DNA from: Fluctibacter halophilus
Lineage (GTDB): Bacteria; Pseudomonadota; Gammaproteobacteria; Enterobacterales; Alteromonadaceae
Assembly (NCBI RefSeq): GCF_020687825.1
Contig: NZ_JAJEWP010000006.1
Coordinates: forward strand, 62,001 to 126,000
Length of the DNA: 64,000 nucleotides
Direction: 5' to 3'
Of this stretch, positions 31,832 to 44,898 are shown piece after piece; the stretch's first letter is position 1, and each line of letters begins with the position of its first letter. The notes below the pieces were generated by a model, which worked only from the letters and a program-made list of their open reading frames with translations, searched no databases and was not told the origin of the DNA. Position numbers and translations under genes: made by a program.

Positions 31832-32628
31832 TACTTCACTCCTTGCAAGGCAGATTCCATCGATGGTGCGGGAAAATGGAACGGCACCGGTCCGTCGGCT
31901 TCCCCGTTTAGGAATTGTTGTACCAGAGGCGAGTCACTTTTGCGGATTTCCTCTGGCGTTCCCTCACCAATAATTTTCTTCTCTGCCAGAATATACACAT
32001 AGTCGGCGATGGACATGACTTCGTTAACATCATGGGTGACCACCACGCTGGTCAGGTTCAACGCATCATTCAATGCTTTGATCAGTTTAACCAATACACC
32101 CATGGAAATGGGGTCTTGTCCGGCAAACGGCTCGTCATACAGGATTAACTCCGGATCCAGTGCAATTGCTCTGGCCAATGCTGCCCGTCGGGCCATACCA
32201 CCGGACAGTTCTGCAGGCATCAAATGTGCAGCGCCGCGCAACCCTACCGCCTGCAACTTCAGCATCACAATGATTTCAATCACCGCTTCACTCAGACGGG
32301 TGTGTTCCCGCAAGGGAAAGGCAATGTTGTCGTACACCGACATATCAGTGAACAATGCGCCGCTTTGGAACAGCATGCTCATCTGACGACGGACATCGAA
32401 CAACCGTCGGCGGCTCATGCCCGGGATCGATTCGCCTTTGAACAACACATCGCCACTGTCAGGTTTCAACTGACCACCTATGAGCTTGAGCAACGTGGTC
32501 TTACCGATCCCACTTGGCCCCATGATCGCAGTGGTTTGCCCTTTACGGATTTGCAGACTAATGTCGTCATAGATCACCCGTTTCTGGCGCCGAAACGTGA
32601 GGTGTTGAATGTCAACGAGGTTATCCAT
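31831..32628 (-). CDS. mlaF: Phospholipid transport ATPase MlaF
   Basis: 265 residues from the ATG at 32628, which aligns the N-terminus ([12 protein letters not shown]) with E. coli MlaF (269). The open frame extends 26 codons upstream without a good ribosome-binding site. ABC ATPase motifs: Walker A GPSGIGKT, signature ELSGGMARR, Walker [14 protein letters not shown] and switch His in [10 protein letters not shown]. The C-terminal extension ending [12 protein letters not shown] is the part that docks MlaB in homologues. It heads the leftward operon and is divergent from yrbG. Confidence 0.95.
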
Positions 32629-40624: not shown

Positions 40625-43600
40625 TCACCCCTCTCCCCTCGCCTCCAGTGTCAGTCGGATGTATTCACTGGGACTCATACCAAACGCCTCGCGAAAACAA
40701 TTGGTAAAATAGGTTGGTGAACGGAACCCTACATCATAGGCGACTGTGGTGATTTGCAGCCCCGTCAACAAGCGCTTTTTAGCTTCTTGAAGGCGCTTAT
40801 TGCGCAGGTAATCGTTAAAATTGTAATCCGCCAATGCAGACAGTTTTCGGTTCAGTTGCCGGGTGCTGAAATTCAGCATCTGAGCGGCCTTTTCACGATT
40901 GAATTCAGGATCCGTATAGTGCGCAGCAACGGTAGTTTCAAAGCGTTCAAAAAATTGCCGCTCCCGTCGCTTTTCGAACGTGATAACGCTGTCGCTAACA
41001 ACCTCTTGACTGTCTTGTTGGCTAACTTGCTGATGTAAAGACCTTGCGATAAGCCGTCGCACATCAATCAAACGCCTGACCCTTGCCTCCAGTTCATGCA
41101 TCACAAAGGGCTTGGCAACAAAGTCATCCACATTCTGCTGCCAGCCTTTTATGCGACTATCCCGATCATTTCGGCCCGTGAGCAGGAGCAACGGAATATG
41201 TGATGTTGCATCATTGCTGCGCAGCGCCTCGCACAAGGCCAACCCCGACATCTCTGGCATGACGATGTCACTGATAACAATATCAGGCACGCTTTCGAGT
41301 GCCATCGCCAATGCCCGTCGACCATTGCAGCATGCTTGCACGCGATATTCCTGACTAAAGGTGTTGACCAGAAATGCTCTTAGCTCGGGCTCATCTTCGG
41401 CAATCAGCATGGTCGGCGCGAGCTGGTTGCCGCCCCTGCACTGTTGCGGCTCCCGGATCTCATTCGGTGCGCTCGGTGGCTTGTCAATTCCGGACAACAG
41501 AGCACCTTCTTCGCTGACACGGGTATCCGGTTGGGTCGCCAGTGGCAGCGACACGATAAAGGAGGTGCCACCACTGGACGTCGAGCGGACACTGATCGCC
41601 CCCCGTCCTTTTTCGACCATATCATGCACCACGCTTAACCCCACACCGCGGCCGTGTTGTTCAAGGCCATCCGGCAAACGTACCAGACGCTTAAAAATGC
41701 GTTGCAGCATCGAAGCCGGGATTGTGTGACCGGCATTCTGAACCCGCAACGACAGATGTTGATGGCACTGTTCGCTATAGACCAGAATGCATGAGTTTGG
41801 CGGCGCATATTTGCACGCGTTGGACAGCAGATTGACCACAACCTTATCAAAGCCGTCCACCGGTAAGTGAACAAAACCCTGACACAGATTAAACAGCAGG
41901 ATATTTTGGCCTCTGGAGGCGGCTAGAGGGCGACAGGACTCGACGATGTAGCCGAGGTTTTTATCCACCTGACATAAGGCCAGGATCTGCTCCTGTTCGG
42001 CTTTTTGCGCCAAATCAAGGATCTGGTCAACCAGGGTAATCAACCGTTGTGTACTTCGACTGATCAGACGGTGTTGTTGTTTGGCTTTGCTCGATGTCAG
42101 CAGCTTTTCCAGCACCGACAGCGGACCTGTCAGCAACGTCAGTGGCGTGCGTAATTCATGGCTTATATTGACAAACAACTGTTGTTTTTTGCGCAACATA
42201 TCGGCCACTTTGCGGTGACTCCGTGCCAATTCAATGGTGCGTTGGGAGACACTGTTTTCAAGGTGTTGGTTAAAACGCTGTAGACTCAGCAATCGCAACT
42301 TAAAAAACGCCCAAACCAGCATCACCGCGCACAACCCATACACGGCATAGCCAAAGCCACTGCTGAAAAAGGGTTGTGCGACCGTAAAGGACAGCCGGTG
42401 TATGAGCTGGACGTTATCTGCTTTGGGATTGATCCCCTGATATTCCAACTGGTAATCACCGGGAGCCAGCTTTCCATATCGAATGGTGTCGACACCCTGT
42501 TGAGTGGTCCAGGTCTCATCATAGCCCATCAACCGGTATGCCAGCCCACTGTCAGCCAGACGCCAACCCGGTGGCCGTTCAAAGCGCAGTTGCAAGCCGC
42601 GCATGTCACTGTCCAGTAAGTGGCTCCCCTGTTCATGCTCAATATTGCGATAACAGGCTGTTTCACGGCCTTCCCGTTCGACACAGAATGCGCTAAGCGC
42701 GATATTCACGGAGCGGGCTGCCTTTTGCTGCAGGTATGCAGAATATACCTGGGTGTCCAACCAATAAGTCAGGTGATCGCCGGCCAACAACACATTCTGT
42801 CCGACCTTAAGGGAAGCAGTAAATTCGAAGTCGGTATCATACACCCCGTCACTTTCTCCCAGCGGGATCCAGCGGGAAGTGGAGTTCCGTACCCAGAACG
42901 CACCTTGATTCGACAATACCCAAGCCTGCTGTCCGGTGTGAATCACATCACGCACGAAAAAGCCCGCACTGTGCGTCGTACTTTGCCATTCGCCACTGTC
43001 CAGGGCCAGCCTGCCAAGTCCCTGTCCATGGGTACAGATGGCCACAGCATTGTCTGCAGTAGCGTAGCCACAGGTGGGCACGACCCGCGGAATGGTAAAC
43101 GTCTGTACAATGCCCTTTGGCGCCACCATCAATGCACGTTGATCGCGGCCAATTAACAACGCATTGCCATTGTTGAGGGCTACCGCAACCTCAAAGCTTC
43201 CATCGGTGACTGGGTGTGCGGAAGCGCTCTGCCCTTCTTGCATCTGTAGCCGCACCACCCGAGGTTGTGCGCCTCGTTGAGTCACGTAAAGGTTATCTCC
43301 GACTACCGCCAATGCCGCAATGTCGTCACCGCCAAAGGTGTCTCCACTGACCCGTATCGGATGGGCTGAGAGTGTTTCACCATTCCAGTCGAACACCACC
43401 AAACCTTTGCCGCTAATGGCCGCGATTGCACGGGTATCCGACATGGATACGACGGCATCGACATAACCAATATCATCCAACAGGGGTTGCGCAGACAAGC
43501 TCTTGGGCTCAAACCGATAAATACTGTCACCATGGGCGATGAACACGGCTTGCTCAAGCACGAACGATGCATCGACATTGATCAGCGGTTCTCCGTCAGG

Positions 43601-44614
43601 CCCACTGATCAAACCGATACCATTGCGGGGATGGGGCAAGAATGACATCCCGTTAACGTTGTCCAGAATGGCCAACCCGTCATCATCCACTTCAACCACG
43701 TGAGAAATGGCATGCGTTGCTTGTCGAGTGCCAAAGGGTAAAAACACCTCACCTAATGGGTGCAGGCGGCACAGTCTGTCACCATACGCCAGGGTATGAC
43801 CATTCTTTAGCACCCTGACGCCATGCAGGGTCGTCAAAGGGCATTGTTGCAGACTGATATCGATGGATTGGAATGAACTGGCAGTTTCAGTGGGCGGCGG
43901 ATAGTGCAACAGATGCTCGCCCTCGACATGCCATAACCCGCCGGAATTATCCATAATCAAGGGGCTGGGTTTTTCACTGGCTGATGGTGAACCAACTGGA
44001 TAACAAGACCTTACCTGACCGCTTACCCTGCAGTGTTTGCCTGTCCGGGTCAGGTAGACGACATCTCCGTCGCTGGCGGACACCTGCTGAACATCCTGGG
44101 CTATAGGCTCAATCTCGATCACCTGCTTGCCGATGCCAAAGCGGTAGAGCCCATCACCACACAAGCCGACATATTCACTCCCTTTAACCCGCAACAGCCC
44201 ATGACATTGATTGGAAGACAGCCCCTGACGTTGATCGATCACTTGCACTGTTCGCGTCAAGGGGTTGTACAACATCAATCCGCCACTGAGCGTGGCCAAC
44301 AGGACGGTTTCAGCATCATGTTCTGCCACTCGCCAAACAACATAAGGGAAGCGCTCAGGGTGATAAGCGATATGGGTATTTTTGTCACCATAGCGTAACT
44401 GAGACAGTCCGTTTTCACTGGCCTGCCATAGGGAATCCCGTCCTGGCGACAACGCATACACAATCCCGGACGTCACAGACTGGCTTGGTTGCGCTGGCAA
44501 TACCTGGGTCGGCAGCGCTTGGCGCTCAATGCTGACGGCCTTTGCATCAGGGCCATACAATAGAAAACACAACAGCAGGTAGGTGCTTGCTGAGCAGATG
44601 TCTCGATTTTTCAT
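40625..44614 (-). CDS. Hybrid two-component sensor: periplasmic propeller, histidine kinase, receiver and AraC output in one chain
   Basis: 1329 residues. Order: signal peptide (1-26); periplasmic two-component-propeller-like repeats to about residue 640 (LWQASENGLSQLRYG, GGLWHVEGEHLLHY); a Y_Y_Y-type domain (ITYG/KLAPGDYQLEYQGINPKA); transmembrane helix (GYAVYGLCAVMLVWAFFKL); HisKA with phosphorylatable His819 (NISHELRTPLTLL); HATPase with VVNLLSNACKYAPP and GRGVGLSVVHDMVEKG; a receiver with Asp1074, phosphoacceptor Asp1116 (SDIVMPEMSG) and Lys1168; and a C-terminal AraC HTH (LTGLQITTVAYDVGFRSPTYFTNCFRE). This architecture is the hybrid two-component type best known from Bacteroidetes, where it senses glycan breakdown products. 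No glycan genes adjoin it. All key residues appear intact. Confidence 0.94.
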   Translation of the reverse strand: MKNRDICSASTYLLLCFLLYGPDAKAVSIERQALPTQVLPAQPSQSVTSGIVYALSPGRDSLWQASENGLSQLRYGDKNTHIAYHPERFPYVVWRVAEHDAETVLLATLSGGLMLYNPLTRTVQVIDQRQGLSSNQCHGLLRVKGSEYVGLCGDGLYRFGIGKQVIEIEPIAQDVQQVSASDGDVVYLTRTGKHCRVSGQVRSCYPVGSPSASEKPSPLIMDNSGGLWHVEGEHLLHYPPPTETASSFQSIDISLQQCPLTTLHGVRVLKNGHTLAYGDRLCRLHPLGEVFLPFGTRQATHAISHVVEVDDDGLAILDNVNGMSFLPHPRNGIGLISGPDGEPLINVDASFVLEQAVFIAHGDSIYRFEPKSLSAQPLLDDIGYVDAVVSMSDTRAIAAISGKGLVVFDWNGETLSAHPIRVSGDTFGGDDIAALAVVGDNLYVTQRGAQPRVVRLQMQEGQSASAHPVTDGSFEVAVALNNGNALLIGRDQRALMVAPKGIVQTFTIPRVVPTCGYATADNAVAICTHGQGLGRLALDSGEWQSTTHSAGFFVRDVIHTGQQAWVLSNQGAFWVRNSTSRWIPLGESDGVYDTDFEFTASLKVGQNVLLAGDHLTYWLDTQVYSAYLQQKAARSVNIALSAFCVEREGRETACYRNIEHEQGSHLLDSDMRGLQLRFERPPGWRLADSGLAYRLMGYDETWTTQQGVDTIRYGKLAPGDYQLEYQGINPKADNVQLIHRLSFTVAQPFFSSGFGYAVYGLCAVMLVWAFFKLRLLSLQRFNQHLENSVSQRTIELARSHRKVADMLRKKQQLFVNISHELRTPLTLLTGPLSVLEKLLTSSKAKQQHRLISRSTQRLITLVDQILDLAQKAEQEQILALCQVDKNLGYIVESCRPLAASRGQNILLFNLCQGFVHLPVDGFDKVVVNLLSNACKYAPPNSCILVYSEQCHQHLSLRVQNAGHTIPASMLQRIFKRLVRLPDGLEQHGRGVGLSVVHDMVEKGRGAISVRSTSSGGTSFIVSLPLATQPDTRVSEEGALLSGIDKPPSAPNEIREPQQCRGGNQLAPTMLIAEDEPELRAFLVNTFSQEYRVQACCNGRRALAMALESVPDIVISDIVMPEMSGLALCEALRSNDATSHIPLLLLTGRNDRDSRIKGWQQNVDDFVAKPFVMHELEARVRRLIDVRRLIARSLHQQVSQQDSQEVVSDSVITFEKRRERQFFERFETTVAAHYTDPEFNREKAAQMLNFSTRQLNRKLSALADYNFNDYLRNKRLQEAKKRLLTGLQITTVAYDVGFRSPTYFTNCFREAFGMSPSEYIRLTLEARGEG

Positions 44615-44706
44615 TCACTTGTCCCAATTCATGGGGTGAGATGCCTCACACCTTGCATACTTACTCGTGTTTCGACACACGTTCTATCCTAGAAAGGGAC
44701 AATCAA
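44615..44706. promoter_or_regulatory. Divergent control region between the hybrid sensor and the small peptide gene
   Basis: These 92 bases separate two divergent start codons. A short stem CGTGT-TTCG-ACACG-like element lies near 44667-44680, and a TATCCT -10-like hexamer at 44685-44690 faces the peptide gene, with no good -35. A binding site for the sensor's AraC domain would be expected here; I cannot define one. Confidence 0.35.
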
Positions 44707-44898
44707 ATGCAAGACAGTAAAACAAATAGCAAAAGCAACACCATCAAGCAAATTGATGGCAAATATTTATGCCATATTTACGGTGGCACGCAAAATCACC
44801 AGAGCGTCTCGGACGCATCAGTCTGTCCGCTGCTGCGTGGGGCTGAATCGGCTGATCACAGTACGCCACAAAAGCCCCCCAAACCGATCGGCCTGTAA
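44707..44898 (+). CDS. Small peptide with double-glycine-leader-like N-terminus, unknown function
   Basis: 63 residues from an ATG with AAAGGGA eight to ten bases upstream. Residues 1-27 are polar and end in KYLCHIYGG; relative to the Gly26-Gly27 pair, hydrophobic residues fall at -4 (Ile), -7 (Leu) and -12 (Ile), as in leaders cut by C39-type peptidase exporters. The acidic -8 residue usual in such leaders is Tyr here. The predicted 36-residue mature part has one Cys, many Ser/His and a Pro-rich end (PQKPPKPIGL). I recognise no family. No exporter is adjacent. It is divergent from the hybrid sensor. Alternative reading: an unrelated small cytoplasmic protein. Confidence 0.5.
   Translation: MQDSKTNSKSNTIKQIDGKYLCHIYGGTQNHQSVSDASVCPLLRGAESADHSTPQKPPKPIGL

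Follow-up and report, generated by a model that had tools for sequence, protein, structure and literature searches.

Double-glycine peptide signalling is a textbook theme of Gram-positive bacteria, exemplified by the induction-peptide three-component systems of lactic acid bacteria and streptococci (ComC-ComD-ComE, BlpC-BlpH-BlpR and PlnA-PlnB-PlnC/D). In these systems a small peptide with a double-glycine (GG) leader is encoded with a polytopic sensor kinase (HPK10-type) and a separate LytTR regulator, and there is a link to peptide-antimicrobial genes. The streptococcal systems have been reviewed (PMC5295010). The existence of GG peptides and C39 exporters in Gram-negative bacteria was predicted two decades ago (Dirix, 2004, as cited in PMC4997328), and the nearest functional Gram-negative case that we found is that of the cyanobacterial EbfG1-4 and PteB (PMC4997328), in which small GG-leader proteins undergo C39 processing and have a regulatory, non-bacteriocin role. 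A search of the text of PMC4997328 found no partner sensor for these proteins, whereas the peptide described here is paired with one. Searches of the open-licence literature returned no Gram-negative example of a GG peptide with a sensor kinase or hybrid sensor as its partner, which is weak evidence of novelty.

The window analysed here, a stretch of 64,000 nucleotides from the genome of the marine-type bacterium Fluctibacter halophilus, contains a small GG-leader peptide gene (P0001) that is divergent from the gene of a hybrid sensor. The locus resembles ComCDE, Blp and Pln in that the gene of such a peptide accompanies that of a sensor kinase, the genome has C39-ABC exporters, there is a link to peptide-antimicrobial genes, and both the mature peptide and the input domain of the sensor are variable. 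It falls outside that class in that the kinase is a propeller hybrid with a fused receiver and an AraC output; moreover, the hosts are Gram-negative, the exporter is usually unlinked and the role of the peptide as a ligand is putative. By analogy, the best explanation would be that the peptide, signalling through its partner sensor, is a Gram-negative counterpart of the lactic-acid-bacterial induction peptides. With moderate confidence, we propose that P0001 encodes a secreted signalling peptide which is the partner of the adjacent hybrid sensor and controls RiPP genes.

The peptide gene and its predicted product

The features of the peptide locus are as follows.

44707–44898, plus strand: double-glycine leader peptide gene P0001, 63 amino acids (from sequence; an automatic rule finds identically placed counterparts at 24 other sensors)
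44707–44787, plus strand: leader, residues 1–27, ending ...IDGKYLCHIYGG (from sequence, a consensus of 27 leaders and hhalign)
44788–44895, plus strand: predicted mature peptide, 36 amino acids, with a Pro/Lys-rich C-terminus, TPQKPPKPIGL (from sequence and similar C-termini in relatives)
44693–44699, plus strand: ribosome-binding site AAAGGGA, 5' of the ATG (from sequence)
44615–44706, no strand: divergent regulatory region of 92 bp between the start codons of sensor and peptide (from sequence)

The translation consists of a leader, MQDSKTNSKSNTIKQIDGKYLCHIYGG, followed by the predicted mature peptide TQNHQSVSDASVCPLLRGAESADHSTPQKPPKPIGL, which starts TQNHQSVSD. The leader ends in Gly26-Gly27 with Ile at −4, Leu at −7, Tyr at −8 and Ile at −12, and thus has the features of C39-exported double-glycine peptides (a GG, GA or AG end and hydrophobic residues at −4 and −12, often also at −7). 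The frame length, these leader residues, a good ribosome-binding site and a polar Ser/His/Pro-rich mature part of 36 residues had all been given in the preliminary description and agree with the sequence. P0001 has no Pfam or NCBIfam matches, and a search with the 63-residue sequence against 99 relatives, GTDB contigs, viral contigs and plasmids gave no homologues. Its relatives are reachable only through the sensor because the mature part evolves too fast. The acyltransferase gene downstream is conserved and its upstream neighbours are not; synteny of this gene did not reveal a similar peptide, a weak negative because the orientation was wrong for roughly half of the loci examined. Two other identities were rejected. 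A frameshifted graspetide precursor was discarded because the other frames downstream lack a GEEGG-like segment, and a class II bacteriocin precursor because the mature part is polar (Ser/His/Pro) and the nearest neighbours include no exporter or immunity genes.

The partner sensor

40625–44614, minus strand: hybrid sensor of 1329 amino acids with a double propeller, Y_Y_Y, transmembrane segment, HisKA, HATPase, receiver and AraC-type HTH (from Pfam and the predicted structure)

Pfam identifies HisKA, HATPase, receiver, Y_Y_Y and AraC domains in the sensor, the start codon of which lies 92 bp from that of the divergent P0001. Residues 1–780 were modelled with AlphaFold (pLDDT 78) as an all-β two-propeller region followed by Y_Y_Y and a transmembrane helix. 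The best PDB matches of the predicted structure are the Bacteroides HTCS proteins BT4663 and BT3049 (TM-score up to 0.73, E values of 2e-28 to 5e-28), which share with it the two propellers, Y_Y_Y, HisKA, HATPase, receiver and AraC HTH as well as the fold. With all of these domains in a single chain by Pfam and predicted fold, the protein belongs to the HTCS type of periplasmic sensor. Propeller hybrid sensors with a known role, such as BT4663, bind glycans, which counts against a peptide ligand. Known HTCS members are tied to glycan use; in the present clade, by contrast, the gene conserved next to the sensor encodes a GG-leader peptide, and RiPP export is what accompanies the sensor in the genome.

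Variation in the sensor is greatest in the first half of the propeller region, where mean identity is 18% compared with 31% in the second half; between two Alteromonas strains the identity is 36% in the N-terminal half, 57% in the C-terminal half and 70% in the kinase part. This variability fits a varying ligand and is not proof of one, and sensor domains in general often diverge fast at the N-terminus, which counts against the ligand reading.

Recurrence of the peptide–sensor pairing

A query of 297 family genomes with the single sensor retrieved only two relatives (27–28% identity), both with a divergent GG-leader frame, about 62 codons long, directly upstream. Sensor profiles retrieved orthologues in one genus, Aliiglaciecola, and a wider profile retrieved more across the family. 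Distant orthologues with a divergent, directly upstream GG-leader frame of 50–80 residues occur in Aliiglaciecola, Alteromonas, Salinimonas and other Alteromonadaceae; among strains with public genomes, the pair is present in Aliiglaciecola lipolytica, Alteromonas aquimaris, A. salexigens, A. arenosi and Salinimonas chungwhensis.

By one automatic rule, a GG-leader ORF lies divergently upstream of 25 of the 36 clade sensors, a set that includes the window's own (22 with a strict GG), or of 20 of 31 when five borderline sensors are left out that came from the control batch and joined the clade, partly after inspection, by their length of about 1300 residues or an ATP-grasp gene in the genome. 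The same rule finds such an ORF at none of 15 longer propeller hybrid sensors, at six of 292 other genes in the fetched loci and in 25 of 2160 dinucleotide shuffles (1.2%). G230 and G211, near-identical with eight differences in 4005 nt, count as one. The counterpart peptides were also read individually, and the rule misses a GG leader with one extra residue (G168) and leaves a short leader (G043) uncounted. The GG ORF is absent at some clade sensors (those of G147, G034, G122, G040, G120 and G012 and both copies in G047).

It is very improbable that P0001 is a chance ORF in the divergent promoter region, as its complete lack of detectable sequence homologues might suggest, because position, architecture and leader consensus recur at the clade sensors far above the ∼1–2% expected; this explanation was rejected. 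The frame is accepted as a real gene by virtue of this recurrent position and not in isolation. The link between a double-glycine peptide and the neighbouring propeller sensor, drawn in the preliminary description from one locus, is borne out by these counts, and the pairing is well supported. The expectation that the gene accompanies the sensor in relatives held through the sensor orthologues and failed through direct homology search with the peptide.

In G034 and G122 (loci L174 and L175), a different divergent frame of 73–77 residues lies directly upstream of the sensor, with a KCxxxxxxCD-like motif and no canonical GG leader, and is possibly another type of partner peptide. At L060:4028-4213, in G010, the peptide frame runs at its 3' end into a decayed sequence resembling tRNA-Thr, and tRNA-Thr adjoins the locus in G058 and apparently also in G191, which hints at insertion at a tRNA.

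Leaders and mature parts

The consensus of 27 leaders, [MIL]-x-E-L-[ST]-x-x-E-[LY]-x-x-V-x-G-G, has the C39 pattern and stands before rapidly varying mature parts. The leader of P0001 agrees with it at Ile −4, Leu −7 and Ile −12. Counterpart leaders end in GG, GA or AG with hydrophobic residues at −4 and −12, as had been anticipated; examples, given as leader and mature part, are MKSNKVERSKEIRELSSFELIQVTGG and SASLSFNSSQEVIERDVRTMKGDLIPHKPRIPPVGSLIAD, MNIEQKTNMQELKEEEYTKVYGG and VNPIDTSCIWPSLHPLGPIKPKRPTEKDLDI, and MNKTQKNFTSKVLREIKGKELDKVSGG and DFDIPVDDYNINPEKPTPVKRKPKRS. Tyr in place of an acidic residue at −8, initially held against a C39 leader, is normal in this set (Tyr in three of 27, Glu in 19). 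Most mature parts end in a Pro/Lys-rich segment, and C-termini resembling that of P0001 include PHKPRIPPVGSL, GPIKPKRPTEKD and GPPKPPKRPVKK. Among seven Alteromonas-group leaders the differences are concentrated at third codon positions (72/110/168 at positions one to three), and the frame of P0001 is not decayed.

The leaders of the sensor-linked peptides resemble those of graspetide precursors (hhalign Prob 88.9, E 2.4e-6). Graspetides are ATP-grasp RiPPs (PMC8939145), and their clusters in this and related genomes have a GG precursor, an ATP-grasp maturase, HlyD and a C39-ABC exporter. The leader likeness, together with Pro/Lys motifs such as TPIK, which are common to both groups and in graspetide precursors stand just before the TMAIGEEGG core, raises the question whether P0001 is a relative of graspetide precursors that lacks the acceptor core and serves as an accessory substrate, a competitor or a leader decoy for the maturase or exporter, with no signal involved. 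We consider this improbable: the likeness is expected of any cargo sharing one exporter, the gene sits with the sensor and not with the maturase, and it is kept in genomes for which the search gave no ATP-grasp gene. Unlike graspetide precursors, the window peptide has no GEEGG core and does not adjoin the maturase; a TxAxGEEGG-type core is absent from P0001 and its counterparts, and the ATP-grasp gene of this genome is on another contig (C13).

Exporters and RiPP clusters

Two C39-ABC exporters in the genome score above the PF03412 cut-off (C13:34171 and C11:209142), and at least one C39 exporter is present in each of the 33 other sensor-bearing genomes searched. A search for an exporter elsewhere in the genome had been proposed in the preliminary description, and its caveat that none is adjacent to P0001 holds here, with one 102 kb away (C11) and the other on a different contig (C13).

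The C13 exporter sits in a graspetide-like cluster (C13:30856-35955; L024:2857-7956) with HlyD, a small LuxR-type HTH gene, a GG precursor ending GSTMAMGEEGGFRYPYE and an ATP-grasp maturase, called with TIGR04187 at 125.6 bits, which is under the model cut-off of 350. The precursor core is GSTMAMGEEGG, and the cluster is conserved in Aliiglaciecola with similar flanks. The C11 exporter belongs to a class II bacteriocin cluster (L025:5424-10270), in which it is accompanied by two GG bacteriocin precursors (MRELSVNEIKQVNGG... and MRELSSKEIKAVQGG...), HlyD and a protease of the CPBP family.

Each of the eight Aliiglaciecola-group genomes with the sensor has its graspetide-cluster C39 gene on the sensor contig, about 13–46 kb away from the sensor. 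Across 297 genomes, the ATP-grasp maturase gene is present in 26 of 35 sensor genomes and in 11 of 262 others (p = 2.7e-21), a statistic inflated by shared ancestry and only partly corrected by the test at genus level (8/11 versus 5/41, p = 2e-4). One clade sensor (G047) is divergent from an operon of LuxR-type HTH, HlyD and C39 genes, and a related sensor (G040) is divergent from a LanM gene (DUF4135 and LANC_like), a GG precursor, C39-ABC and HlyD. The latter locus (L285:5793-16980) is a class II lanthipeptide cluster divergent from a related propeller hybrid sensor. G025 and G291 keep the HlyD–C39 pair, the GG peptide and the sensor, and no ATP-grasp gene was found in them. In G337 a second GG-leader peptide (LSALNKEQLAQVSGG...; L292:14232-14405) lies near a LuxR-HTH gene and a C39 exporter cluster. 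The regulators that the graspetide survey (PMC8939145) lists in the vicinity of ATP-grasp genes are others than this one, and no mention of Alteromonas turned up when its text was searched.

These associations would also be compatible with P0001 being an exported effector, antimicrobial or otherwise, that is only a regulated target, with the sensor reading another cue such as a glycan and switching on peptide and RiPP genes together. The glycan sensor BT4663 is among the solved structural relatives of the sensor, a regulator and its target are typically divergent, and such exporters carry other GG cargo, for example bacteriocins and graspetides. We nevertheless hold this reading to be rather unlikely, since one small peptide per sensor follows the sensor, whereas the ATP-grasp gene may be missing (G025, G291, G337 and G104), and the mature parts, with their polar, Pro/Lys-rich composition, differ from the hydrophobic bacteriocin precursors of this genome.

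A candidate operator

44630–44645, plus strand: candidate operator CATGGGGTGAGATGCC (from a post hoc exact-match search of the genome)
44615–44706 of the window and C13 around 32189–32204: regions where, under the shared-operator idea, the AraC domain would bind at CATGGGGTGAGA

The pattern CATGGGGTGAGANNCC, with 14 fixed bases, has exactly two mismatch-free matches in the 4.03-Mb genome. One is in the gap between peptide and sensor genes and the other (C13:32189-32204) falls within the 137 bp that precede the gene of the graspetide precursor. Comparison of the peptide/sensor gap with exporter or precursor promoters in nine genomes gave no consistent shared motif, the striking match being confined to the window genome. 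Because the match emerged post hoc and lacks consistent counterparts in the other genomes, we take it as suggestive only.

Proposed mechanism and significance

Returning to the signalling-peptide reading, the 63-residue precursor would be synthesized and its leader recognized by a C39-ABC exporter, which would cleave after Gly27 and export the 36-residue peptide; such export is likely. The exporter would be encoded elsewhere, most probably in the C13 graspetide cluster and possibly in the C11 bacteriocin cluster. The double-propeller periplasmic domain of the sensor would then detect the mature peptide, and phosphotransfer to the fused receiver would switch the AraC domain, which may act on the divergent promoter region and on RiPP and exporter genes. 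We infer cleavage and export of this peptide, its binding by the sensor, control of graspetide genes and positive feedback. Counting against the scheme, a 36-residue peptide that had passed the outer membrane would have to return to the periplasm before it could reach the sensor, except if its release took place in the periplasm.

For the family as a whole, we judge the chances to be evenly balanced that these loci represent a Gram-negative pheromone family, in which a C39-exported GG peptide is the ligand of a propeller hybrid sensor with AraC output and controls the production and export of RiPPs (graspetides or lanthipeptides). If true, the sensor would be the first HTCS-type receptor for a GG-peptide pheromone. 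The peptide–sensor pairs of many species offer material for asking whether propeller hybrid sensors, a type familiar from glycan sensing, read peptides as well, and they also bear on what switches on graspetide clusters.
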